33,638 nt of DNA from Giesbergeria sp. (GTDB taxonomy: Bacteria > Pseudomonadota > Gammaproteobacteria > Burkholderiales > Burkholderiaceae_C), in assembly GCA_023150295.1 (NCBI GenBank), contig JAKLLE010000040.1, forward strand, positions 1 to 33,638, in the 5' to 3' direction. Every line of letters begins with the position of its first letter. Within the stretch, counting starts at the first letter, position 1. The notes below the pieces were generated by a model that was not told the origin of the DNA, did no database searches, and worked only from the letters and a program-made list of their open reading frames with translations. Of this stretch, positions 8,212 through 33,562 are shown piece after piece. Both the position numbers and the translations under genes were made by a program.

Positions 8212-9183
8212 TCAAGCCCTGCGTGGCACGGTCAGGCCCCACAGCAGGGCCAGCAGCAGGGCCGAGCCGGTGTTGTGCGCCAGCACCAGGGCCATCGGCA
8301 GGTTCCAGGCGACCGCCGCCAGGCCCAGGGCGGCCAGTGCGGCGGGAATCACTGCCAGCCCCAGCGCCACTGCGCCCAGGCCCAGGCGCCAACTGCGCCA
8401 GGCCAGCAGCCACAGCGCGGCGGTCAGCAGCAAGCCGCCTGCGCGGTGCAACAGGTGCACCCAGGCGCCTTCGGGCCGCGTGGGCAAGGCGCCTGTGGGG
8501 GGCTCCAGCCAGGGGTTCAGCGCCTGCCAGGAGCCCGCAGCCAGGTTGCAGTCGCCCCAGGTGGGGCAGCTCAGACCTGCGTGACCGGCACTCACCAGCC
8601 CGCCCAGGGCCACCTGGGCCAGCAGCAGCAGGCCTGCCAGCCAGGCCCAGGGGGCCAGGGGGGCGGCGCCAGGGCGTGCGCTGTGGGGTGCCGCAGCCAG
8701 CAGCGCCATACGCACGCTCAGGGCAAACATGGCAAAACCACCGAGCAGGTTGCCCAGCGTCACCGCAGGCAGCCGCGACTGCGCCGTCCAACGGCCCAGC
8801 ACGGCCAGAAAAAGGGCCAGTGCCAGCAGCGCCAGCGCCATGCGGCCCTCGGGCCACAGTGCCGGACGCGATGCCAGGGCGGTCATCAGCATCACCAGCA
8901 CCAGCAACAGGGCTGCCGATGCAATCACCCGGTGCGCCATGCGGGCGGCTGCGGTGGCGGTGGTTCCCTGCGCAGCTGCAGGCGTTTCGGCGTTGGCCTG
9001 CTGTGCCTGGGCGTAGCACTGGGGCCAGGGCTCGCAATCCAGTCCGGCCTTGGACAGGCGCAGGAAGGCACTGAGCCCGGTGATGAGCAGCACCATGACG
9101 GCGCACAGCCATGCCATGCGCTGCAACAACAGGCGCCGCCGCGCCAAAGGGGCGGGCGCGTGGCCAAAGTCAACAGAGTTCAT
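8212..9183 (-). CDS. ctaA: heme A synthase CtaA/COX15
   Basis: This 323-residue polytopic membrane protein has two homologous four-helix halves. Heme-ligand histidines are visible in RMAHRVIAS (His84), VHLLHRAGG and LAHNTGSAL. The extracytoplasmic Cys pairs are LDCEPWPQC (Cys50/Cys56) and LSCPTWGDC in the second half. The enzyme oxidises the C8 methyl of heme O to give heme A. The ATG at 9183 is used; a TTG 27 bp upstream is in frame but unnecessary. It diverges from the respiratory operon that carries heme O synthase, so the heme-copper enzyme there probably uses heme A or O rather than only b hemes. It could share the FNR-type control region. Confidence 0.9.
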   Translation of the reverse strand: MNSVDFGHAPAPLARRRLLLQRMAWLCAVMVLLITGLSAFLRLSKAGLDCEPWPQCYAQAQQANAETPAAAQGTTATAAARMAHRVIASAALLLVLVMLMTALASRPALWPEGRMALALLALALFLAVLGRWTAQSRLPAVTLGNLLGGFAMFALSVRMALLAAAPHSARPGAAPLAPWAWLAGLLLLAQVALGGLVSAGHAGLSCPTWGDCNLAAGSWQALNPWLEPPTGALPTRPEGAWVHLLHRAGGLLLTAALWLLAWRSWRLGLGAVALGLAVIPAALAALGLAAVAWNLPMALVLAHNTGSALLLALLWGLTVPRRA

Positions 9184-9359
9184 AGGGATTTGGTGGGGAA
9201 AGTGTTGCAAAAGTCACACGCCGTGACTGCTGGTGCGGGCGAGCGCCAGATATGCGCGCAAAGGGCCCAAAAGGTTCATCACACATGGATGAAACACACT
9301 TGGTGACCCCGGTTTTCGTCTTGTTACCAACAGTCGGGCCCGTGGCGGCATCCCAAGTA

Positions 9360-9401
9360 TTGATTCAGATCATGTTTAAGTCGACAGTAAGGGTCAAGAA
9401 T
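9360..9401 (+). promoter_or_regulatory. FNR/ANR/DNR-type box with class II promoter for the respiratory operon
   Basis: TTGATTCAGATCAT at 9360-9373 matches the consensus TTGAT-N4-ATCAA at 9 of 10 specified positions. Its centre (9366.5) is 41.5 bp from about 9408, the start site predicted by the -10-like AAGAAT at 9396-9401. That is the standard class II activation geometry. FNR/ANR (low O2) and DNR-type (NO) regulators share this half-site, so the signal cannot be told from the site alone. Confidence 0.75.
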
Positions 9402-9437: not shown

Positions 9438-9593
9438 GTGAACCACCATGACGATGAGAACGAAAAAGTTCCGTTCATGCAACAGCTGCTGGACAACCCA
9501 TTCCTGCTGCTGTTCCTGGGCGTGATGATTCCCATGATTGTGTACAACCTTTGGGGTGTCATAGACATTTTGACCATCCCCGCAGCCAAATAA
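9438..9593 (+). CDS. 51-residue single-helix peptide, likely small subunit of the heme-copper enzyme
   Basis: The start is GTG at 9438, chosen because AAGGAG (9424-9429) lies 8 nt upstream; the GTG at 9432 is too close to that site. The product has an acidic/His-rich N-terminus (NHHDDENEK), then one hydrophobic helix from about residue 19 to 44, and ends ILTIPAAK. It is the first gene of the operon, 12 bp before subunit II. B-family heme-copper oxidases such as Thermus ba3 contain a one-helix subunit IIa of about 34 residues. Size, topology and place suggest a counterpart, but sequence homology is not shown. Confidence 0.75.
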   Translation: MNHHDDENEKVPFMQQLLDNPFLLLFLGVMIPMIVYNLWGVIDILTIPAAK

Positions 9594-9605: not shown

Positions 9606-10145
9606 ATGAGCGCAATTCTTCCCCCCTCAGAGCGGCTGTGGTGGAAACACCCGCTGGACCGCCTCGAAGCCGTCTGGATCGGCATTGCCTTCGTCTGGTG
9701 CATGGTCATGTTCTTCATGATGGTGTTCTGGCACATCTACGGCAAGCAGAACCTTGCCACCGAAACCTACAAGACCACGCCGGACAAGTTCTCCGCGCAG
9801 GCGCAAGCCGTGGTGGACAAGTACACCGTGCGCACCGAAACCGACCAGAACGTGCCCGTGGTCGCCCCTCCCGAGGGCAGCGACGTCTACATGATCGGCC
9901 GTCTGTGGAACTGGTGGCCCATTCTTGAGCTGCAAAAAGGCAAGACCTACAAGCTGCATCTGACCTCCATGGACTACAACCATGGCTTCTCCCTGCAGCC
10001 GACCAACATCAACATCCAGGTGGTGCCGGGCTACGAGCACGTGATCAAGGTCACGCCGAACGAGTCGGGCACCTTCTCCATCGTGTGCAACGAGTATTGC
10101 GGCATTGGCCACCACGAGATGGTGGGTCGTATGTACGTGAAGTAA
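9606..10145 (+). CDS. heme-copper enzyme subunit II with CuA centre (B-family-like)
   Basis: This 179-residue protein has one transmembrane helix (about 22-44) and a periplasmic cupredoxin domain. The dinuclear CuA ligands are all present: His126, Cys161, Glu163 (backbone), Cys165, His169 and Met172. The single helix and the segments NHGFSLQPTNINIQVVPG and CNEYCGIGHHEM resemble Thermus ba3 subunit II rather than the two-helix A-family subunit. It accepts electrons, probably from a cytochrome c or cupredoxin, and passes them to subunit I. AAGGA lies 8 nt before the ATG. Because its partner lacks the O2-reductase tyrosine, a NorS-like role (CuA subunit of an sNOR/eNOR-type NO reductase) is at least as likely as a cytochrome oxidase role. 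Confidence 0.9.
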   Translation: MSAILPPSERLWWKHPLDRLEAVWIGIAFVWCMVMFFMMVFWHIYGKQNLATETYKTTPDKFSAQAQAVVDKYTVRTETDQNVPVVAPPEGSDVYMIGRLWNWWPILELQKGKTYKLHLTSMDYNHGFSLQPTNINIQVVPGYEHVIKVTPNESGTFSIVCNEYCGIGHHEMVGRMYVK

Positions 10146-10158
10146 TGCGAGGACAGCC

Positions 10159-11859
10159 ATGACCGTACAAACCACATACCGTACCTGCCCGCGCTCGGGC
10201 CTGCAGTTCGAGGACCAGGCCGAGAAGCTCATGAAAATCAACGCCGTCACCGCTGTGGTGGCACTGCTCGTTGGTGGCCTGCTGGCCATCGGCGTGGTGC
10301 TGACCCGCTGGCCGGCGGTGCACTGGCTCGCGGCCGACACCTTCTACATGGTGCTCACGGCCCACGGCATCGACATGCTGATCTTCTGGATCATCTTCTT
10401 CGAAGTCGCTGTTCTGTACTTTGCCTCTTCCACCCTCTTGCGATGCCGATTGGCGACACCCAAGATCGCCTGGGCCGCCTATGCGCTCATGCTGGTGGGC
10501 GCCGTGATGAACAACGTCTCGGTGTTCCAGGGCGATTCGAGCGTGATGATGACTTCCTATGTGCCCATGATGGCGCACTGGTCGTTCTACCTCGGCCTGA
10601 TCCTGTTCGCTGTCGGCGCGCTGATTGCCTGCTTCGTGTTCTTCGGCACCCTGGTCGTGGCCAAGCGTGAGAAGACCTACAAAGGCTCTGTGCCCCTGGT
10701 GACCTTCGGCGCCATCACGGCCGCCATCATCGCGGTGTTCACCATCAGCTCGGGCGCCATCATCCTGATCCCGACCTTCATGATGGCCATCGGCCTCATC
10801 AACGAAGTCGATCCGCTGATCTACCGCACCATCTGGTGGGCCTTTGGTCACTCATCGCAACAGATCAACGTGGCTGCCCACATCTCGATCTGGTATGCCG
10901 TGGCCGCCATCGCTTTCGATGCCAAGCCCATGTCCGAGCGCGTCAGCCGTGGCGCCTTCCTGCTGTACATCCTGTTCCTGCAGCTTGCCAGTGCCCACCA
11001 CCTGCTGGCCGACCCCGGCATCAGCACCGAGTGGAAAGTGGTGAACACCAGCTACTTCATGTACTTTGCTGTGCTGGCGTCCATGATCCACGCCCTGTCC
11101 ATCCCTGGCGCCATGGAAGTGGCCCAGCGTGCACGTGGCTACAACAAGGGCCTGTTCGAGTGGCTGCGCAAGGCACCCTGGGGCAACCCGACGTTCTCCG
11201 GCGTGTTCATTGCGCTGGTGGGCTTTGGCTTCCTGGGCGGCATCACCGGCGTGATGATGGGTACCGAACAGCTCAACCTGCTGATCCACAACACCATCTA
11301 CGTGCCCGGCCACTTCCACGCCACCGTGGTGATCGGTACCACGCTGACCTTCATGGCCATGACCTACTTCCTGATTCCCGTGCTGTTCCGGCGCGAGATG
11401 ATTGCCCCTGGTCTGGCCAAGATCCAGCCGTACCTGTTCGGCTTCGCGATGTACTTCTTCTGCCTCGTGATGATGGGTGCAGGTACGCTGGGCGTGTCTC
11501 GCCGCCACTGGGACATGGCTTTCAGCGGCCATGCCCTGGCCTATGAATGGCCCGGCGCTGCCTACCTGATGATGGGTCTGGTGGGTATCAGCGGTATCGT
11601 TGCCATCGCTGGCGGCGCGATCTTTGTCTACGTGACCGTCATGTCCGTGTTCTTCGGCAAGAAGCTCGACGCTGGCGTGGTCAGCCCCAAGTTCACCCCG
11701 CTGATGCCTGCGGCTCCCACGGCTGCCGCCCAGACCTACGGTTCGGCTGGCTTCGTGGCGCCCGGCACCTTCGTGCTGGCGGTGTTCTTCCTCGTGACCT
11801 TCGTGTTGTACTACTTCGTGAACTGGAAGTACCTCGGCCAGTTGTGGGGTCTGAGCTGA
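10159..11859 (+). CDS. heme-copper subunit I lacking the active-site Tyr; putative NO reductase (sNOR/eNOR-type)
   Basis: This 566-residue protein has about 13 membrane helices. The six canonical histidines are present: His69 in helix II (TAHGIDM), His231 in helix VI, the His280-His281 pair in helix VII (SAHHLLAD), and His385 and His387 in helix X (PGHFHAT). After the helix VI His the sequence is S-S-Q-Q, so Gln235 occupies the position of the Tyr cross-linked to the CuB His in A- and B-family O2 reductases (H-x-x-x-Y). The alternative C-family Tyr, six residues before the helix VII pair, is also missing (Leu274). Tyr loss is the hallmark of NO-reducing members. The proteins proposed as eNOR and sNOR combine a CuA subunit with such a site. 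Annotation as a plain cytochrome c oxidase would therefore be doubtful. Confidence 0.88.
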   Translation: MTVQTTYRTCPRSGLQFEDQAEKLMKINAVTAVVALLVGGLLAIGVVLTRWPAVHWLAADTFYMVLTAHGIDMLIFWIIFFEVAVLYFASSTLLRCRLATPKIAWAAYALMLVGAVMNNVSVFQGDSSVMMTSYVPMMAHWSFYLGLILFAVGALIACFVFFGTLVVAKREKTYKGSVPLVTFGAITAAIIAVFTISSGAIILIPTFMMAIGLINEVDPLIYRTIWWAFGHSSQQINVAAHISIWYAVAAIAFDAKPMSERVSRGAFLLYILFLQLASAHHLLADPGISTEWKVVNTSYFMYFAVLASMIHALSIPGAMEVAQRARGYNKGLFEWLRKAPWGNPTFSGVFIALVGFGFLGGITGVMMGTEQLNLLIHNTIYVPGHFHATVVIGTTLTFMAMTYFLIPVLFRREMIAPGLAKIQPYLFGFAMYFFCLVMMGAGTLGVSRRHWDMAFSGHALAYEWPGAAYLMMGLVGISGIVAIAGGAIFVYVTVMSVFFGKKLDAGVVSPKFTPLMPAAPTAAAQTYGSAGFVAPGTFVLAVFFLVTFVLYYFVNWKYLGQLWGLS

Positions 11860-11875: not shown

Positions 11876-12775
11876 ATGCACACCACCACGCTCAAGCCCA
11901 CCGGGCGCGGCATGGGCCAGATGGCGCGCGACGTCATCTCGCTGTTCAAGCTGCGCATCGGTGTGCTGATCATGATCACCGCGCTTGTGGGCATGGCAGT
12001 CGCCCCAGGTCAGTCGCCCAGCTTCGTGCAGGTGCTGATCCTGGCCGTCTCCGTGCTCCTGGCGTCGGCAAGCGCGGGGGCGTTCAACCAGTATGTCGAG
12101 TACGAGAGCGACCGCCTCATGGCGCGTACGGCCAAGCGTGCCTTTGCCACCGGCGCGCTGCCCCACCACCCTGCCTGGCTCGTCCTGATGGCCGTGCTGC
12201 TGGCAGGGGCCGTGGGCGCGACCTGGGTCGCGCTCAATGGCGTTGCGGCGCTTCATGTGTTTCTCGGCGCCTTCTTCTACGGGGTGGTCTACACCCTGTG
12301 GCTGAAGCGGCGCACTTCCCTCAATATCGTCATTGGCGGTCTTGCGGGGAGTTTTGCCGTGCTGGCGGGCGCTGCCGCCGTGGATCCAGCGTTGGGGCCC
12401 CTGCCCTGGCTGCTGGCCCTGGTGCTGTTTCTGTGGACACCGCCCCATTTCTGGAGCCTGGCCATCGCCAACCGCGATGACTATGCCCAGGCAGGCGTGC
12501 CCATGCTTCCCGTTGTCGTGGGCCCCGAGCGTGCGGCCCGCACCGTGCTGGTGAGCACCGTGGCGCTGTTTGTGGCCTCGTTGCTGCCCTTGGCCTACGG
12601 TGCCGGGCCGGTGTACGCCGTGGGCGCTCTCGCGGGTGGCCTGCACTTTGTGCGCAAATCCTGGCAGCTCGCGCGCAAGCCCGAGCGTGCCACGGCCATG
12701 GGTTCCTTCTTTGCATCGCTGGTGCAGCTGAGCGTCCTGCTGGTCGCCGCCTGCATTGATGCCATGCTGCGCTGA
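11876..12775 (+). CDS. ctaB: protoheme IX farnesyltransferase (heme O synthase)
   Basis: This 299-residue UbiA-superfamily membrane prenyltransferase has the first polyprenyl-diphosphate motif as NQYVEYESDRLMARTAKR (residues 71-88) and the second region as FLWTPPHFWSLAI followed by NRDDYAQAGVPMLP. It adds a farnesyl group to heme B to make heme O, the precursor of heme A. The first motif is atypical (Tyr/Glu where many homologs have Asp) but keeps Asn71, Asp79 and the R-T-x-x-R tail. It sits 17 bp after subunit I. Together with the divergent ctaA it implies heme O or A in the operon's enzyme. Confidence 0.9.
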   Translation: MHTTTLKPTGRGMGQMARDVISLFKLRIGVLIMITALVGMAVAPGQSPSFVQVLILAVSVLLASASAGAFNQYVEYESDRLMARTAKRAFATGALPHHPAWLVLMAVLLAGAVGATWVALNGVAALHVFLGAFFYGVVYTLWLKRRTSLNIVIGGLAGSFAVLAGAAAVDPALGPLPWLLALVLFLWTPPHFWSLAIANRDDYAQAGVPMLPVVVGPERAARTVLVSTVALFVASLLPLAYGAGPVYAVGALAGGLHFVRKSWQLARKPERATAMGSFFASLVQLSVLLVAACIDAMLR

Positions 12776-12786
12776 AGGGGTATGCA

Positions 12787-13650
12787 GTGGCCCGATCCAT
12801 CCTGTCCCGCCTCCGCCAGGCCGCAGCATGCAGCGGCCTGGGCTGCGCGCTGGCCCTGTCCGGCGCAGCCTGGGGGCAGCAGGAACCCGCATCCGACCTG
12901 GGTCTGGACCGTGAGCAAGCCTTGCGCACGAGCCAGGCCGCCATCGGCCGCCAGATCGGTGACCACATCCTTCTGAACCGTGAGGGCCGCCCTGTGGCCC
13001 TCTCCTCATTCCGGGGCAAGCCTCTGCTGGTGAGTTTTATCTACACCGGCTGTTTTCAGGTGTGCCCCACCACCACCAAATCCTTGCAGGAGACGGTGGA
13101 AGGACTCCAGAAAAGCCTGGGGCCCAACCAGTTCAACGTGGTGAGCATCGGCTTCAACCAGCCGGCCGACTCTCCGCAGGCGCTCAAGGCCTTCGCTACC
13201 CAGTACGGCATCAAGCAGCCCAACTGGGATTTTCTGAGCCCGCCCGCTGCCATTGTTCCGGCGCTGGCCCAGGATTTCGGTTTTGTCTATACCGCCACTC
13301 CGGCCGGATTCGACCACGTGCTGCAGGTTTCCATCGTGGACGCCGAGGGACGCATCGTGCGCCAGGTGTATGGTGAATCTGTGGTTCCGGCCGAACTGGG
13401 CGAACCGATCAAGCTGCTGCTGGCGGGTGCGCCCGTTCAGTCCAACGAATTGTTGGACGACCTGATGGACAGGGTGCGCATCCTGTGCACGGTCTATGAC
13501 CCCAAGACGGGCGCCTACCGCGTGGACTACACGCTGCCCATCCAGATTGCCGGGGGCGTGACCTTCTTTGTCCTGATGCTGATGTTCTTCTTCAATGAAT
13601 GGCGCTCCAACCGGCAGAGCGCCCGCAACAAGGGGGTGCGCAGCGTCTGA
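12787..13650 (+). CDS. SCO1/SenC-family copper chaperone with C-terminal membrane anchor
   Basis: This 287-residue protein starts at GTG 12787, set 6 nt after AAGGGG. It has a signal-like N-terminus (about 1-30) and a thioredoxin-fold domain with the copper ligands Cys89 and Cys93 (YTGCFQVCPTT) and His177 (FDHVLQ). A final helix spans about 252-269. SCO proteins deliver copper to, or reduce, the CuA site of subunit II. The C-terminal anchor is unusual, since most SCO proteins are anchored at the N-terminus. SenC genes accompany the norSY genes of ammonia oxidisers, which agrees with the NO reductase reading of the operon. Confidence 0.9.
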   Translation: MARSILSRLRQAAACSGLGCALALSGAAWGQQEPASDLGLDREQALRTSQAAIGRQIGDHILLNREGRPVALSSFRGKPLLVSFIYTGCFQVCPTTTKSLQETVEGLQKSLGPNQFNVVSIGFNQPADSPQALKAFATQYGIKQPNWDFLSPPAAIVPALAQDFGFVYTATPAGFDHVLQVSIVDAEGRIVRQVYGESVVPAELGEPIKLLLAGAPVQSNELLDDLMDRVRILCTVYDPKTGAYRVDYTLPIQIAGGVTFFVLMLMFFFNEWRSNRQSARNKGVRSV

Positions 13651-13664
13651 CGCTCGCCAGTGCC

Positions 13665-15254
13665 ATGTCTCTGCCAGGTTCAGCCTTCTCCCCCGAAGGC
13701 TCCAGCACCTCTCCCTCGCTTTCGCCGGTTTCCCGCCTCGCCGCCATCTACCGGGCCTTGGAGCACGCGTTCGACGGACCTTTCGGCCCGGCGCTCAATC
13801 CGCTCAAACACCTGGGTGCGCTGGGATTCATGCTGCTGTGGCTGCTGGTGGTCAGTGGCACGGTGCTCTACATCGTGCTCGACACCTCGGCGGCGGGCGC
13901 CTACCGCTCGATCGAATCCCTGACCGAAGTGCCCTGGATGCTGGGCACGGCCCTGCGCGGCGTGCACCGCTATGCCGCCGATGCCTTTGTGCTGGTTATG
14001 GCCGCGCACATTGCGCGCGAATGGGTGCTGGGGCACTACCGGCACTATCGCACCGTGCCCTGGCTCACCGGCGTGCCATTGGTGGCATTGGCCTTTGTCT
14101 GCGCTGTGGGCGGCTTCTGGCTGAACTGGGACCGGCTGGGACAGTATTCGGTAGTGTCCACGGCAGAGTGGCTGGACGCCCTGCCCTTTCTGGCATCGCC
14201 CCTGGCACGCAACTTTCTGGGCGGCATGAGCCTGGGCGACCGTTTGTTCACGCTGTTCGTGTTCATCCACATCGGTGTTCCCCTGCTGCTGATCTTTGGC
14301 CTGTGGTTCCATATCCAGCGCATCAGCCTGGCCAAGGTCTTCCCACCGCGTGCGCTGGCTTGGGGCACGTTCGGCACGCTGCTGGCGCTGTCCTTCGTGG
14401 CGCCGGTGGTCAGCCAGGGCCCGGCAGACCTCGGAACGGTGCCCACGGTGCTGGCGATCGACTGGGTATTGCTGTTCATCCACCCGCTGATCGACGCCAC
14501 CTCGCCGCTGGTGGTGTGGGGGCTGTTGGCGCTGGCGTTCGTGTTGTTGTCGGTGCCGCCGTTCCTGCCCGCGCCGCCCCCGGCGCCGGTCGCCGTGGTG
14601 TACTCCGACCACTGCAGTGGCTGCGGGCGTTGCTTTGACGACTGCCCTTACTCTGCCATCACCATGGTGCCGCACCCCAACGGCCGCCGCGGAATGCAAC
14701 TGGCCGAGGTGAACGCCGACCTGTGTGCGGGCTGCGGCATTTGCGCGGGGGCCTGCCCATCGTCCACCCCTTTCCGCAGTGCCGAGGTACTGGTCACCGG
14801 TATCGACATGCCGCAATGGCCCGTGAACGACCTGCGCCAGCAGCTGGTGCAACGCCTGGCGGCCATGCCCGGCCCCCGGCGCCTGGTGGTGTTTGGCTGC
14901 GAGCAGGGCACCCGTGCCCGCCTGGATGCGCCCGACGTATTGCACTTCCCGCTGGTGTGTGCCGGTATGCTGCCGCCCTCCTTTGTGGAATACGCGTTGC
15001 GCGCGGGTGCCGATGGCGTACTGATCAACGGCTGCCGCGAAGGCGGCTGCGAATTCCGCCTGGGCCAGCGCTGGACCGCCCAGCGCCTGAGCGGCGAGCG
15101 CGAGCCCCATTTGCGCAGTTCGGTACCTGCCGAGCGCTGGCGCACCGCCTGGACCGACCCCGGCGACGAGCAAGCGCTGGCGGCTGCCGTGGACGAATTG
15201 CGCAGGCAATGCGATGCCTGCGCCCCCCCTGAACTTGAGGAGAAAAACCGATGA
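13665..15254 (+). CDS. cytochrome b / 2x[4Fe-4S] ferredoxin / MvhD-like fusion
   Basis: This 529-residue protein has three parts. Residues about 30-300 form a cytochrome b/b6-like membrane domain with two bis-His heme sites (His101/His115 and His202/His216). Residues about 312-370 form a 2x[4Fe-4S] ferredoxin: Cys317, 320, 323 and 327-Pro, then Cys354, 357, 360 and 364-Pro. Residues about 405-470 resemble the delta subunit of methyl-viologen-reducing hydrogenase (MvhD/FrhD), with Cys412, Cys432, Cys457 and Cys462 in GC, VCAGM and GCREGGCEFRLG. MvhD normally passes electrons to heterodisulfide-reductase-type flavoproteins. The membrane part is paralogous to the gene at 17204. The ATG at 13665 is preferred because upstream in-frame starts lie inside the SCO gene. 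No soluble partner for the MvhD part is encoded nearby. Confidence 0.88.
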   Translation: MSLPGSAFSPEGSSTSPSLSPVSRLAAIYRALEHAFDGPFGPALNPLKHLGALGFMLLWLLVVSGTVLYIVLDTSAAGAYRSIESLTEVPWMLGTALRGVHRYAADAFVLVMAAHIAREWVLGHYRHYRTVPWLTGVPLVALAFVCAVGGFWLNWDRLGQYSVVSTAEWLDALPFLASPLARNFLGGMSLGDRLFTLFVFIHIGVPLLLIFGLWFHIQRISLAKVFPPRALAWGTFGTLLALSFVAPVVSQGPADLGTVPTVLAIDWVLLFIHPLIDATSPLVVWGLLALAFVLLSVPPFLPAPPPAPVAVVYSDHCSGCGRCFDDCPYSAITMVPHPNGRRGMQLAEVNADLCAGCGICAGACPSSTPFRSAEVLVTGIDMPQWPVNDLRQQLVQRLAAMPGPRRLVVFGCEQGTRARLDAPDVLHFPLVCAGMLPPSFVEYALRAGADGVLINGCREGGCEFRLGQRWTAQRLSGEREPHLRSSVPAERWRTAWTDPGDEQALAAAVDELRRQCDACAPPELEEKNR

Positions 15255-15754
15255 ACCGCGTACTCAACTGGACCGGCCAGGCCCTGCTGTACGGTAGCTT
15301 TGCCGTGGCACTTGGGGTGTTTTCACGCTGGCCTGTGTACCACCCCCTGCCGCCGGACATGGCACAGGTCAAGGTCAGCTTCATCCACCATGGTGTGCGC
15401 ATTGCCGACTGCCGACCCTTCACCGCCGAAGAGCAGGCCAAGATGGCCAAGAACATGCGCCAGACCCAGAAATGCGAGCGCGAACGCTCACCGGTCAGCA
15501 TTGAGGTGGACATCGACGGCAAGTCGGTGCTGCGCCACACCTCGCCGCCTTCGGGCCTGTCGCGCGATGGCGCTTCCACCGTGTACCAGCGCCTCGACCT
15601 GCCGGCCGGTGAGCACCGCATCGCCGTCCGCTTTAAGGACAACAAGGCCGTGGAAGGCTTTACCCACCAGCGTGAGGAGACAGTCATCCTCAAGCCCGCG
15701 CAGGTCATGGTGATCGACTTCAACCTCGACAAGGGAGGCATCGTGCTGCTATGA
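15251..15754 (+). CDS. membrane-anchored periplasmic protein of unknown function
   Basis: This 167-residue protein has one N-terminal helix (about 7-25) and a soluble, probably periplasmic beta-rich domain. Two cysteines (in ADCRPF and QKCERERS) could form a disulfide around a short helical stretch. Later segments (SPVSIEVDIDG, LPAGEHRIAVRFKD, ILKPAQVMVIDF) look like the strands of an Ig-like fold. It overlaps both neighbours by 4 bp (ATGA at each end), so it is translationally locked into the operon and is probably a subunit or assembly factor of the complex. It might be compared with the Ig-like tail of FixG/CcoG, but no family is recognised with confidence. Confidence 0.8.
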   Translation: MNRVLNWTGQALLYGSFAVALGVFSRWPVYHPLPPDMAQVKVSFIHHGVRIADCRPFTAEEQAKMAKNMRQTQKCERERSPVSIEVDIDGKSVLRHTSPPSGLSRDGASTVYQRLDLPAGEHRIAVRFKDNKAVEGFTHQREETVILKPAQVMVIDFNLDKGGIVLL

Positions 15755-17190
15755 GCGCAGGAACCTCTCCCTTGTCAGGTGGGCGGCGCACGGCCACGGC
15801 GCCCTTGCCCACCGTGCGCGCGGGTGCGGACTACCAGTTGAGCATCCCGCAGGACGCCCGTCTGGCGCTGGCCCGCGGCTGGCTCTGGTTGGGTATGGCC
15901 GCGCTGATAGGCTCCGGGCTGTTCTCGGTGCTGTTGGTCGTGTCACGCACGCCTTACGTGAACCAGTGGCTCCCGGCCGCCAATTTCTTCCACATCTCGC
16001 TGGTGCTGCACGTGGACCTGTCGGTGCTGGTGTGGTTTGTGGCCATGGGCGGTTTGTTGTGGAGCCTGCATGGCAGCCAGCGTGCCCAGGGCGCAGGCTG
16101 GGTAGCGCTGTGGATCACTGCAGCGGGCACCCTGGCCATGGCGCTGGCACCCTTTCTGGCGCCCGGCGAACCCATCATGGCCAACTACATCCCGGTGCTG
16201 GAATCTCCGCTGTTCCTTGTCGGCTTGGTCGTGTTTGGCGTAGGCACTGCCGTTCTGGTGCTGCGCAGCCTGTGGGCGGCGCCCCGCTTGGGCCTGCAGT
16301 ACGACGGGCGCGGCGCGCTGGACTTCGGCCTGAGCTCTGCCGCGGTGGCCACGGCCGTGGCCTTGCTGTGCTTTGCCTGGTCCTGGGCGGTCCTGCCCAC
16401 CACCTTGCACGGAAAGGCGTATTACGAAATCCTGTTCTGGGGTGGTGGACACGCGCTGCAGTTCACCTGGACCTTGATGATGCTGGTGGCGTGGCTCTGG
16501 CTGGCCAGTGCCTGCGGTGCCCATTTGGTGCTGAGCCCGCGCGTCACGGTGCTGATGTTTCTGCTGGCGCTGCTGGGCGTCTTTGTGACGCCCTATGCCT
16601 ATCTGGCCCACGACGTCGCATCGGTGGAGCACCGCAACCTGCTCACCTGGGCCATGCGCATGGGCGGTGGTCCGGCCATCGTGCCGGTGGGCATGGCCGC
16701 CGTGCTGGGGGTGCTGATGCTGCGCAACCTGACGGCTGAAATGCGCCCACTGCGTGCGGCGCTGCTGTCCTCGGTGCTGCTGTTTGGTGCGGGTGGCGTC
16801 ATTGGCATTTTCATCCAGGGCAGCAACGTGCGCATCCCGGCGCACTACCACGGCTGCATCGTGGGTGTGACGCTGGCGCTCATGGGTGCGGTCTATCGCA
16901 TCCTGCCGTCCATGGGCTACCAGGCCCCGCAGGGCCGCATGGCCACCTGGCAGCCCTGGATGTACGGCATCGGCCAGCTCATGCACATCATCGGACTGGT
17001 CTGGTCCGGCGGCTACGGCGTGCAACGCAAGGTGGCGGGTAGCGACCAGGTGCTGCGCAGCACCGCCGAAGTGGCGGGCATGGGCCTCATGGGCCTGGGT
17101 GGGCTCATCGCCATCATCGGCGGGCTGCTGTTTGTGGTGGTGGTGATCCGCGCCATCCGTCAGCCACAACCCAGTGCCGCCCACGGCTGA
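15751..17190 (+). CDS. second, divergent heme-copper-like 12-helix membrane protein
   Basis: This 479-residue protein has about 12 predicted helices in the order of a heme-copper subunit I. Candidate ligands are His81 and His87 in helix II (HISLVLHVDLSVLVWF), His234 in helix VI (GGGHALQF), His287-Asp288 in helix VII (YLAHDVAS) and His365/His367 in helix X (PAHYHG). Both low-spin and high-spin heme ligands can be placed. The helix VII His pair that binds CuB is H-D instead, and there is no Tyr four residues after His234 (it is Phe238). It could be an NO reductase relative with an altered metal site, or a heme protein without CuB. Annotation pipelines would probably call it cbb3-type subunit I. 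It overlaps the upstream gene by 4 bp and is followed by the flavin-containing cytochrome b. Confidence 0.85.
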   Translation: MSAGTSPLSGGRRTATAPLPTVRAGADYQLSIPQDARLALARGWLWLGMAALIGSGLFSVLLVVSRTPYVNQWLPAANFFHISLVLHVDLSVLVWFVAMGGLLWSLHGSQRAQGAGWVALWITAAGTLAMALAPFLAPGEPIMANYIPVLESPLFLVGLVVFGVGTAVLVLRSLWAAPRLGLQYDGRGALDFGLSSAAVATAVALLCFAWSWAVLPTTLHGKAYYEILFWGGGHALQFTWTLMMLVAWLWLASACGAHLVLSPRVTVLMFLLALLGVFVTPYAYLAHDVASVEHRNLLTWAMRMGGGPAIVPVGMAAVLGVLMLRNLTAEMRPLRAALLSSVLLFGAGGVIGIFIQGSNVRIPAHYHGCIVGVTLALMGAVYRILPSMGYQAPQGRMATWQPWMYGIGQLMHIIGLVWSGGYGVQRKVAGSDQVLRSTAEVAGMGLMGLGGLIAIIGGLLFVVVVIRAIRQPQPSAAHG

Positions 17191-17203
17191 AGGAACTCGA
17201 ACA

Positions 17204-19129
17204 ATGATCAAACTATTCCAAAACATCCTGCAATGGCTCTTCCTCAAAGCCGAGGGCCTGTTCAATGCCGCCTTTGGTGACCGCATCAACCCCTTCTACC
17301 ATCTGGGCGCCATCACCTTCTTCCTGTTCTGGATCGTGGGCGCCAGCGGCCTGTACCTGTACGTGTTCTTCGAAACCGGGATTGCCGAGGCCTACTCGTC
17401 CGTGGTGGCGCTGACCGAGAACCAGTGGTGGGCCGGCGGCATCATGCGCAGCGTGCACCGCTATGCCTCGGATGCCATGGTGCTGACCATGGTGCTGCAC
17501 ATGCTGCGCTACTTCGCCTTCAACCTGTACCACGGGTTCCGCTGGTTCTCGTGGGTGACGGGCGTCATGCTGATCTGGATGGTCTACGCCTCTGGCATCA
17601 ACGGCTACATGCTCCCATGGGACCAGATGGCGCAGTACGTCACGGTCGCCAGCTTTGAGTGGCTGGACTGGCTGCCGATCTTCAACGGCACGCTGATGCG
17701 CAACTTCCTGTATTCCGATCACGTGGGCGACCGCTTCTTCACGCTGCTGTCCTTCATGCACCTGGGCATTCCGCTGGTAGTGCTCATGGTCATGTGGATC
17801 CACGTGCAGCGCGTGCCCAAGGCCCGCACCACGCCGCCGCGCCCCATCGTCGTTGGCCTGCTGCTGACCTTCCTGGTGGTCTCGCTGGTAGCACCGGTGC
17901 ACAGCCAGGGCGGTGTGAGCAACTTGGCCGTGGCCGTCACCGAGGTGAAGATGGACTGGTTCTACATGGCCGTGTTCCCCTTGATCACCGAATGGCCCCT
18001 GGGCCGCGTGTGGGCCCTGGTGGTGGGCGCTTCGGTGCTGCTGGCCCTGCTGCCCTGGTGGCCGCCGCAGTTCCGCCGTGGTGACAAGCGCACCCACCAG
18101 GTCGTGGTGCACGGTTCCAAGGGGATGAGCACCGAATTCAAGGTGCGCGAGGGCGAGACCATCCTCGACGCCGGTCTGCGCGAAGGCCTGGCCCTGCCCT
18201 ACGAGTGCCGCAACGGCGGCTGTGGGCTGTGCCTGTGCAGTGTCGAGCAAGGCAACGTCGAGCACCGCCCCTACCAGCGCAGTGCCCTGCCCGACGCCCA
18301 GAAGGCCCAGGGCAAGGCGCTGATGTGCTGCGCCGTGCCCAAGGGCGATGTGGTCATCGACGTGGAGGGCTTCACCGGCGACGCGCAAGTCCAGGCCGAA
18401 GTGCACACCGCTACCGTCGCCCAGATGGAACGCCTGGCCGACGACGTGATGCGCGTGCTGCTGCAACTGCCCGAAGGCAAGACGCTGGATTTCAGTGCAG
18501 GCCAGTACATCGACATCCTGCTGGAAGACGACCAGCGCCGCGCCTTCTCGTTTGCCAACCGCCCCGGCGAGAGCCGCCAGATCGAACTGCACGTGCGCCT
18601 GGTGCCCGGCGGGCGCTTCACCACCCACGTGTTCCAGGGCATGAAGGTGGGCGACACCCTGCGCTTTGAAGGCCCGCGCGGCAGTTTCACGCTGCGCGAA
18701 AGCCCGCACCCCATCCTCTTCGTGGCTGGTGCCACGGGCTTTGCCCCCATCAAGAGCATTGTCGAGGATGCCTTTGCGCGCGGCGTGCAGCGCCCCATGC
18801 GCCTGTACTGGGGCACGCGCAAGCCGCAAGACCTCTACATGCTGGAGCGCTGTGAGCAATGGCAGCGCGAGCATGCCAACTTCACCGTGGTGCCCGTGGT
18901 GTCCGACGCCAGCGAGGGCGACGGCTGGACCGGCCGCACCGGCCTGGTGCACGAAGCCATGCTGGCCGACTTTGCCGACCTCAGCGGCCACGAGGTGTAC
19001 CTGTGCGGTTCCGTCAAGATGGTGGAGACGGCCGTGCCCGCCTTCATCGCCCAGGGGCTGGACGAAAACTCCTGCTTCTCCGACGCCTTCCTGATGGCCG
19101 CCCCGGCTCCGGCCCCGGCACAGCACTGA
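17204..19129 (+). CDS. cytochrome b / [2Fe-2S] ferredoxin / FAD-NAD(P)H reductase fusion
   Basis: This 641-residue protein starts at ATG 17204, 9 nt after AAGGA. Residues about 1-290 form a cytochrome b membrane domain with His85/His99 and His186/His200 as heme ligands. Residues about 297-390 form a plant-type [2Fe-2S] ferredoxin with Cys335, Cys340, Cys343 and Cys375. Residues about 398-630 form a ferredoxin-NADP reductase-type flavoprotein, with RAFSFANRP (FAD), VAGATGFAPIKS (nucleotide loop) and CGSVKMVE near the C-terminus. The order permits NAD(P)H to FAD to [2Fe-2S] to b hemes in one chain, or the reverse. The flavoprotein part resembles CDP-6-deoxyglucoseen reductase and phenol hydroxylase reductases. 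It is the last gene before the terminator. Confidence 0.9.
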   Translation: MIKLFQNILQWLFLKAEGLFNAAFGDRINPFYHLGAITFFLFWIVGASGLYLYVFFETGIAEAYSSVVALTENQWWAGGIMRSVHRYASDAMVLTMVLHMLRYFAFNLYHGFRWFSWVTGVMLIWMVYASGINGYMLPWDQMAQYVTVASFEWLDWLPIFNGTLMRNFLYSDHVGDRFFTLLSFMHLGIPLVVLMVMWIHVQRVPKARTTPPRPIVVGLLLTFLVVSLVAPVHSQGGVSNLAVAVTEVKMDWFYMAVFPLITEWPLGRVWALVVGASVLLALLPWWPPQFRRGDKRTHQVVVHGSKGMSTEFKVREGETILDAGLREGLALPYECRNGGCGLCLCSVEQGNVEHRPYQRSALPDAQKAQGKALMCCAVPKGDVVIDVEGFTGDAQVQAEVHTATVAQMERLADDVMRVLLQLPEGKTLDFSAGQYIDILLEDDQRRAFSFANRPGESRQIELHVRLVPGGRFTTHVFQGMKVGDTLRFEGPRGSFTLRESPHPILFVAGATGFAPIKSIVEDAFARGVQRPMRLYWGTRKPQDLYMLERCEQWQREHANFTVVPVVSDASEGDGWTGRTGLVHEAMLADFADLSGHEVYLCGSVKMVETAVPAFIAQGLDENSCFSDAFLMAAPAPAPAQH

Positions 19130-32491: not shown

Positions 32492-33562
32492 TCATTGCGC
32501 CAATCTACTGAGTGCATCCAACGGGCTGGCTGTGCCGCCTGCCGCCACCTTGAGCACGTGGGTGTAAATCATGGTGGTGCTGACATCCGAGTGACCCAGC
32601 AACTCCTGCACCGTGCGAATATCGGTGCCCGCTTGCAGCAAGTGCGTGGCAAATGAATGACGTAAGGTGTGAACCGAAACAGGCTTGTGAACCTGCGATG
32701 CTGCGCAAGCCAGCTTGATGGCGCGCTGCAAACGTTCTTCGTACAAGTGGTGTCGGCGCTCAATGCGTGAGCGTGGATCAATCGACAACTTGGGAGATGG
32801 AAACACCCAGAACCATCCCCAGCGCTGGCCCAAACCGGGGTATTTGGTCGCCAGTGCATCGGGCACCTCAACACCCGCTCGCTGCTGTTGCCGGTCCAGT
32901 TCCCACAGTGCGCGTGACTGCGCCATTTGCGAGCGCAGCGCGGCATCCAGCGATTGCGGCAACATCACCACCCGGTCTTTTCCGCCTTTACCGTCGCGCA
33001 CCACCAGCACACGCTGATCAAAGTCCATATCTTTGACCCGAAGGCGCAACCCTTCATTGAGCCGCATGCCGGTGCCGTACAACAGTTTGGCCAGCAACAG
33101 CTCAATCCCCGTCATCGCCCCAAGCAGGCCAGCCACCTCTGCCACGGTCAATACCGACGGAATGCGCCGAGGCCGCGTCGGACGCTGCACATCGTCAAGC
33201 CACGGCAGCTTCACACCCAGCACTTCGCGGTACAAAAAAAGCAAGGCACTGAGCGCCTGGTTGTGGGTGGACACGGAGACGTTGCGCTCGGTGGTCAGCA
33301 TGGACAGAAATTGCTGAACCTCTGCGGCACCCATGTCACGCGGATGCCGCACTTGCCCGCTACGCCCATGCCAACGCACGAAAAACTTCACCCAGTACAG
33401 GTAAGCTTCTTCAGTGCGCAAGCTATAGTGTTTGTACCGCAGTACCTCGCGCAACTGATCCAGCAAGCGGACTGACTGGGGGATATAGGAGGCGGGTTTG
33501 TTGGCTCTATGCCGTTTTGTGTGGAACTTGACAACCTCAAAGACACCGATGCACCCATCCAT
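32492..33562 (-). CDS. intI: integron integrase IntI
   Basis: This 356-residue tyrosine recombinase has the full catalytic set: Arg167 (GTGMRLNEGL), Lys195 (KGGKDR), His298 and Arg301 (HTLRHSFATHLL), His324 (LGHSDVSTT) and Tyr333 (MIYTHVLK). It also has the insert that separates IntI from XerC/XerD, at about 234-272 (DALATKYPGLGQRWGWFWVF through DPRSRIERRHHLYE). The overall wording is close to IntI1. A few extra residues (RSGQ) lie before RHPRDMG, and the N-terminus is about 10 longer. It looks intact. Cassettes normally lie on the 5' side, which here is beyond the window end. Confidence 0.95.
   Translation of the reverse strand: MDGCIGVFEVVKFHTKRHRANKPASYIPQSVRLLDQLREVLRYKHYSLRTEEAYLYWVKFFVRWHGRSGQVRHPRDMGAAEVQQFLSMLTTERNVSVSTHNQALSALLFLYREVLGVKLPWLDDVQRPTRPRRIPSVLTVAEVAGLLGAMTGIELLLAKLLYGTGMRLNEGLRLRVKDMDFDQRVLVVRDGKGGKDRVVMLPQSLDAALRSQMAQSRALWELDRQQQRAGVEVPDALATKYPGLGQRWGWFWVFPSPKLSIDPRSRIERRHHLYEERLQRAIKLACAASQVHKPVSVHTLRHSFATHLLQAGTDIRTVQELLGHSDVSTTMIYTHVLKVAAGGTASPLDALSRLAQ

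Follow-up and report, generated by a model that had tools for sequence, protein, structure and literature searches.

A conserved gene cluster of Burkholderiales joins two bc1-like cytochromes b to an eNOR-type nitric oxide reductase core

A 33,638 bp stretch of DNA from Giesbergeria sp. (GenBank assembly GCA_023150295.1, contig JAKLLE010000040.1; hereafter the window) was analysed with a focus on four consecutive genes at positions 13665–19129. These encode a cytochrome b fused to two [4Fe-4S] clusters and an FlpD domain (cytb-FeS), a membrane-anchored periplasmic beta-sandwich protein, a 12-helix heme-copper-like protein and a cytochrome b fused to a [2Fe-2S] domain and an FNR-type flavin module (cytb-FNR). 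Together with the upstream cox2, cox1, ctaB and sco, they make up the eight cluster genes counted below. The four genes belong with the upstream eNOR-type nitric oxide (NO) reductase core as one conserved gene cluster, and the sequences give about an even chance that they form the electron-input part of this reductase. All four open reading frames (ORFs) recognised in a preliminary description of the window were real, and the domains claimed for them were confirmed by Pfam scan.

By a published active-site residue criterion the upstream core is an eNOR-type NO reductase, and it was taken as such because Gln occupies the Tyr site with the metal ligands kept. In subunit I (cox1), the six His ligands and the Gln at the active-site Tyr position (Q235, within GHSSQQ) were invariant in 16/16 aligned rows, and the Gln was also present in 68/76 and 17/17 rows of two wider sets. 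The other eight of the 76 rows lacked both His residues of transmembrane helix (TM) 7 and came from loci without a cox1 gene; they were taken as stray matches on the 12-helix gene, the same position having been seen for four of them. Apart from these, the His ligands of the 76-row set were interrupted by a gap at H69 in one row. In subunit II (cox2), the CuA ligands C161, C165, H169 and M172 were kept in 66/66 and 17/17 rows, the window's row included, and the first CuA His was read by eye only as H126. The eNOR family of NO reductases was reportedly treated by Hemp and Gennis in 2008, and a characterised member is said to come from R. marinus. Published sources are cited here from excerpts available in PubMed Central (PMC); in these, Gln at the active-site Tyr position is the mark of eNOR, with Asn listed for sNOR (Table A4) and Tyr for oxygen reductases (PMC8756737). 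An sNOR identity, the first lead given by the norSY-senC layout, was ruled out by the same residue, which is Gln and not Asn. The eNOR subunit I is easily mistaken for cytochrome c oxidase. Another heme-copper gene of the source genome (L004) had no NCBIfam match.

The two cytochrome b domains of the window were 37% identical over 310 residues, and the motifs listed for both in the preliminary description (VHRYA, RNFL, GDR-FTL, VAPV-SQG) were present in each. Their portrayal as paralogues with different cytoplasmic electron modules was borne out by this identity, by their joint conservation and by a sister relation in the tree described below. All four heme-ligand His residues were invariant in both alignments (57 rows of the Fe-S type and 61 rows of the FNR type). 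For comparison with cytochrome bc1, a profile was made from 13 bc1 cytochromes b chosen for their PEWY motif; the target motif was preset, whereas the alignment to it was not. The profile alignment had a probability of 99 with E values of 2.8e-18 (FNR type) and 3.4e-18 (Fe-S type), and spanned 259 columns through helix F, with a DW pair falling on the PEWY position. The Asp of this pair was invariant in 57/57 and 61/61 rows, the Trp was invariant in the Fe-S type and nearly so in the FNR type, and both residues were also conserved in other lineages. An AlphaFold2 model of the cytb-FeS protein had a mean predicted local distance difference test score (pLDDT) of 85.2 and a predicted TM-score of 0.85, and Foldseek matched it to bc1 cytochrome b chains over about 280–350 columns (best E 5.6e-8), at a TM-score of about 0.4 of the whole query and in some cases with a high root-mean-square deviation.

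From these alignments, each cytochrome b is a bc1-like helix A–F domain that has an altered quinol-site motif and is predicted to carry two bis-His hemes. The likeness to cytochrome bc1/b6f covers helices A–F with the four heme His, the two b hemes and the ef loop; in contrast, the PEWY motif of the Qo site is not present, Asp (with Trp) standing in its place, the membrane part ends after helix F and the cluster holds neither a Rieske protein nor cytochrome c1/f. In bc1 topology the end of helix F lies on the cytoplasmic side, and for this reason the Fe-S and flavin modules were placed in the cytoplasm. In the C-terminal part of cytb-FeS, eight [4Fe-4S] cysteines and four FlpD cysteines were all invariant in the 57 rows. 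This part resembles MvhD/FlpD-HdrA modules in its FlpD [2Fe-2S] and ferredoxin domains, but is fused to a cytochrome b, and no HdrA was found among the eight proteins scanned. In cytb-FNR, the plant-type [2Fe-2S] cysteines were invariant in the 61 rows and are followed by BenC-like FAD and NAD domains.

Conservation was surveyed in samples of 150 genomes for the family, 300 for the order and 398 for the phylum. The 12-helix protein was present in 18/150 family genomes, the window's included, and 16 of the 17 others held all eight genes together, one of them across two contigs. The seventeenth (G027) had no ctaB at the cluster and one in-frame stop in the FNR-type cytochrome b gene (L049, 9767–11674, + strand). 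A further set consisted of 80 named loci, the best of at least 570 confirmed candidates, which were selected by the 12-helix gene and come partly from the same genomes as the 17. All eight genes were found in 58 of these loci, and Ramlibacter lithotrophicus RBP-1 (L098) is a culturable environmental carrier of the full set; only ctaB was missing in four, cytb-FeS was missing in another four, and 14 were shorter, mostly beginning at a contig end. One TGA was noted in the 12-helix gene of G118 (L043, 3254–4636, − strand). The closest named relative of the window among the matches listed was Acidovorax sp. 210-6, with a 12-helix protein 99–100% identical. In the order sample, core subunit I was present in 23/300 genomes, the window's included, and the 12-helix protein accompanied it in 22/22 others, mostly on the same contig. 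The co-occurrence of core and module in every Burkholderiales genome examined speaks against a free-floating module in this order. The neighbourhood survey that the preliminary description had proposed confirmed its grouping of the four genes, and did not support its separation of the module from the upstream core oxidase.

In the phylum sample, eNOR subunit I was found in 30/398 genomes, 28 of these outside the family. The cytb-FeS protein was present in 27 of the 28, not always on the same contig, compared with 5/29 genomes that had only a 12-helix relative (p 4e-10); four of these five genomes were 69–82% complete and the fifth was in 730 contigs. The genes for cytb-FeS and the anchored protein, which adjoin each other in other lineages too, were next to the core in 12 of 20 regions fetched from 18 genomes of other lineages, the remaining regions being divided, more widely spaced or truncated. 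In G240, a relative of the 12-helix protein (41%) was encoded ~5 kb farther along. At least three genomes had two cytb-FeS genes in tandem together with the anchored and 12-helix proteins, and four had the FNR type only (two Castellaniella, among them Castellaniella defragrans DSM 12141 (L066), one Ramlibacter metagenome-assembled genome (MAG) and one Thermomonas MAG). A requirement for the cytochrome b heterodimer put forward as the core of the complex is therefore not supported, as FNR type alone, Fe-S type alone (the 12 regions) and tandem Fe-S types all occur. A tree of 53 rows placed the FNR and Fe-S cytochromes of the window's group as sisters inside the Fe-S family (94/88, below the starred level), and the FNR form looks like a duplicate of the Fe-S type cytochrome b with an exchanged cytoplasmic module. 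The order or strand of the last four genes varied among lineages, yet the grouping persisted, an argument that function, and not just recent shared ancestry, keeps them together. Since the genes recur jointly in the family, in other Burkholderiales and partly in further lineages of the phylum, conservation of the module is far beyond chance. What stays constant is thus eNOR, the anchored beta-sandwich protein and a DW-type cytochrome b that bears a low-potential cytoplasmic module of one kind or another.

The 12-helix protein shares with heme-copper subunit I the PF00115 family and the heme His on TM2 and TM10, but the adjacent His-His pair of TM7 (CuB) is missing. It keeps H87, H234, H365 and H367, and H234 is the only one of the three CuB His ligands retained. 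The pair was absent from 35 distant relatives, drawn from a 38-member group that also held two eNOR subunit I sequences and one fragment, and from an 80-row set. Because these two histidines were absent in all relatives aligned, the protein was not regarded as an ordinary heme-copper centre, and a role as an ordinary catalytic oxidase was ruled out. It is probably a di-heme protein without ordinary CuB. Potentially, H294 (76/80 rows) and H287 (43/80 rows), which are nearby, belong to another, unusual metal site. Most distant relatives have a further His six residues after H234, where the window has Trp. The earlier label of a second heme-copper-like protein is right as regards PF00115 membership and wrong if an ordinary catalytic centre was meant, two CuB ligands being missing. 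NnrS was rejected as an identity, as there was no Pfam NnrS match and only PF00115 was found, at E up to 0.1. No match to the 12-helix gene was present in the plasmid database PLSDB.

Distant 12-helix relatives alone (about 30–45% identity) occurred without eNOR nearby, where they adjoined CtaA, ABC-transporter or multiheme/NHL genes. In locus L202 the relative adjoins a CtaA gene, and other loci likewise have genes of this CtaA family next to such relatives. In L178 the relative ends in C-terminal TPR repeats and is clustered with multiheme cytochromes c, NHL proteins, and ResB- and CcsA-like genes (Pfam scan); similar gene sets, as judged by shared gene clusters, were seen in L169–L172, L174, L175 and L179. 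In some of the genomes that have the eNOR unit, another 12-helix heme-copper-like gene, less closely related, is found away from the cluster (L050, 7278–8699, + strand; G653:C9, G689:C264 and G546:C19).

The anchored protein was modelled with a pLDDT of 92.5, and the model had no confident match in the PDB (best E 0.011). Its family corresponded to no Pfam family; one of 63 members matched one family, at E 0.0062. A 51-amino-acid ORF upstream of cox2, missed by the preliminary description, was found by a crude pattern in 90/104 loci, one of the 90 (L060) being false, and its product matched no NCBIfam family. This one-helix protein is a probable small eNOR subunit, presumably comparable by position to the small subunit of ba3-type oxidases.

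The genomic context of the cluster was also inspected for denitrification genes. As PF02239 also matches NirF and NirN, the term NirS candidate was used only for strong cd1-domain matches to this family (scoring about 480 bits or higher in each of the 43 genomes). A NirS candidate was present in 17/18 cluster genomes against 26/132 others (Fisher p 6e-10, ignoring kinship), and the eighteenth cluster genome has NirK. NosZ (TIGR04244) was present in 9/18 against 21/132 (p 0.002, likewise ignoring kinship). Five genomes (G042, G094, G098, G123 and G143) had strong cd1 matches on the same contig as the cluster, no more than about 10 kb away, G027 and G061 had weaker or partial ones on this contig, and the source genome has its NirS candidate and NosZ on other contigs. 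The exact motif TTGN8CAA was found in 67/95 non-redundant 420-bp upstreams of the cox2-like gene, compared with a Markov expectation of 11.8 (maximum 21 in 100 runs) and 7/95 for a control inside cox1. The upstream region of the window had no exact copy, and held three one-mismatch copies besides the one listed in the table. On the basis of the NirS association, the nearby cd1 matches and the FNR/Dnr-like sites, the cluster was placed in NO/anoxia biology.

For the module as electron input, the following route is proposed. Quinol would bind at the periplasmic-side DW site of cytochrome b, NAD(P)H would donate through the FNR module, and a ferredoxin- or Hdr-like partner through FlpD, to the b hemes, by way of which quinol and the low-potential cytoplasmic donors would exchange electrons. 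Electrons would exit on the periplasmic side, probably via the CuB-less di-heme 12-helix protein and the anchored beta-sandwich protein, enter CuA of subunit II and reach subunit I, whose heme-CuB site would convert two NO to nitrous oxide (N2O). NO reduction could in this way be fed independently of soluble cytochrome c and of a Rieske/bc1 complex. We infer every interface, the quinol binding, the direction and the roles of the 12-helix and anchored proteins from the sequences.

Several points weigh against this assignment. No Rieske domain was found among the eight cluster proteins by Pfam scan, which makes the step from cytochrome b to CuA a guess. A single physical complex, its activity and the direction of electrons through the b hemes are predictions. 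No 12-helix or FNR gene was seen in the 12 regions of other lineages that have cytb-FeS and the anchored protein beside the core, the four genomes with the FNR type only contained no full-length cytb-FeS match genome-wide, and one eNOR genome (G217) was without cytb-FeS. As the Fe-S type, the FNR type and the 12-helix gene are each sometimes absent, the anchored protein is the only one of the four always found in the complete clusters examined. Finally, only half of the cluster genomes have NosZ.

A rather unlikely use of the same parts would be quinol-based bifurcation powered by NO. Quinol would be oxidised at the DW site; eNOR would receive one electron, and the second would move uphill across the b hemes to the cytoplasmic modules, yielding NAD(P)H or reduced ferredoxin. 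The attraction of bifurcation lies in NO being a very strong oxidant and in the proposal that anammox NAD(P)-linked Rieske/cytochrome b complexes act in this manner. The bc1-like site with its conserved acid, the low-potential Fe-S/flavin modules fused behind helix F and the interchange of these modules between lineages are all consistent with it. The main obstacle is the missing Rieske protein for the first electron; moreover, the nearest relatives of the FNR module are dioxygenase reductases (BenC), which run from NADH. A precedent is found in cytochrome b complexes with NAD(P) oxidoreductase subunits that were proposed to make NAD(P)H (PMC12954380), and a bifurcating module might be viewed as a Rieske-less counterpart of the anammox Rieske/cytochrome b complexes. 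According to the excerpts of the same paper, the latter (Kuste4569–4574 and Kustd1480–1485) likewise combine a cytochrome b with a cytoplasmic NAD(P)/Fe-S module and N-oxide chemistry, but have Rieske proteins, subunit IV-like proteins and multiheme cytochromes c, none of which is in the present cluster, whereas here one chain holds helices A–D and E–F with the module fused to them, and a CuA heme-copper NO reductase is the partner. As a whole, a self-contained NO reductase in which NO reduction is coupled to Rieske-less quinol bifurcation via the DW site and interchangeable modules is unlikely.

An assembly module, with the cytochromes b acting alongside CtaB and SCO to provide the reducing power for inserting copper or heme into eNOR, is improbable. 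It would suit the presence of CtaB and SCO in the cluster, the divergent CtaA-like gene, and the CtaA genes near 12-helix relatives in L202 and other loci. It does not suit the finding of cytb-FeS in nearly all eNOR genomes, or the make-up of the two cytochrome b chains, which are large, carry several cofactors, retain the acid of the quinol site and to our knowledge are unlike known assembly factors. Least of all is the core expected to be mainly an O2 reductase with the module as a microaerobic feed: a case has been made for the related B-type enzyme sNOR of Nitrosomonas as a high-affinity oxidase (PMC6967387), but Gln replaces the cross-linked Tyr, the cluster genomes are associated with NirS, and eNOR is counted among the biochemically characterised NO reductases (PMC11388526).

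Among the matches listed from the open PMC literature, no description of the four-gene module was present. Murali et al. 2024 (PNAS), reportedly the main eNOR paper, was outside this scope and may describe parts of the module. The core agrees with the eNOR family in the subunit I Gln at the Tyr site and the CuA-type subunit II, whereas the excerpts examined make no mention, for eNOR, of the four-gene module, the orphan anchored protein or the one-helix peptide. The preliminary statement that no characterised complex has these parts stands among the literature matches listed. One protein in a table of PMC8756737, RME88945.1, combines cytochrome b6, Fe-S and FlpD domains, with no tie to eNOR there.

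The features of the cluster and its upstream region are collected in the table. The preliminary description had most of the module genes overlapping by 4 bp, which is correct for two of the three junctions (15251–15254 and 15751–15754); that between the 12-helix and cytb-FNR genes is a 13-bp gap with the ATG start at 17204, or an overlap with a GTG start at 17174.

Table. Positions of the cluster genes and upstream features in the window
Feature	Position	Strand	Remarks
CtaA/COX15 heme A synthase-like gene	8212..9210	-	PF02628, E 4.4e-31; divergent from cluster
FNR/Dnr-like site TTGATTCAGATCAT	9360..9373	.	one mismatch to TTGN8CAA; 246 bp upstream of cox2-like start
51-amino-acid single-helix protein, probable small eNOR subunit	9438..9593	+	GTG start; ninth gene, precedes cox2
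eNOR subunit II (cox2), cupredoxin with CuA ligands	9606..10145	+	PF00116
eNOR subunit I (cox1), six His ligands, Gln at Tyr site (GHSSQQ)	10159..11859	+	PF00115, E 4.6e-62
Heme O synthase CtaB/CyoE	11876..12775	+	TIGR01473, 272.9 bits, above cut-off
SCO1/SenC copper chaperone-like protein	12787..13650	+	PF02630, E 7.5e-14
Cytochrome b-2[4Fe-4S]-FlpD (cytb-FeS)	13665..15254	+	PF00033 + 2x[4Fe-4S] + PF02662 FlpD/MvhD [2Fe-2S]
Membrane-anchored periplasmic beta-sandwich protein, orphan family	15251..15754	+	invariant Cys C54 and C75; no Pfam family
12-helix heme-copper-like protein	15751..17190	+	PF00115, E 2.9e-15; without TM7 His-His pair
Cytochrome b-[2Fe-2S]-FNR (cytb-FNR)	about 17204..19129	+	PF00033 + plant-type Fer2 + FAD and NAD(P)H domains, BenC-like

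The divergent CtaA/COX15-like gene may point to a modified heme in eNOR. Elsewhere in the window, a YhcG/DUF1016 PDDEXK nuclease gene (PF06250; 20822–21904, − strand) lies between UbiD-like and UbiX-like genes, the latter two recognised by eye. At the right end, a tyrosine-recombinase-like integrase (32492–33562, − strand) was recognised by eye near tripartite tricarboxylate-type transporter genes.

In denitrification, N2O is produced by NO reductases, which are commonly regarded as terminal enzymes supplied by cytochrome c or quinol. If the electron-input reading is true, a denitrifier NO reductase that includes bc1-like cytochromes connected to NAD(P)H and low-potential Fe-S modules would change the view of electron supply to NO; a built-in feed from the quinone pool and NADH would be a new way to power N2O formation and could explain denitrification that bypasses bc1. 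The pairing of cytb-FeS with the anchored protein serves as a marker for recognising eNOR clusters. With this module it could also be tested directly whether electron bifurcation can be powered by NO reduction, in which case NO respiration would directly yield NAD(P)H or reduced ferredoxin.

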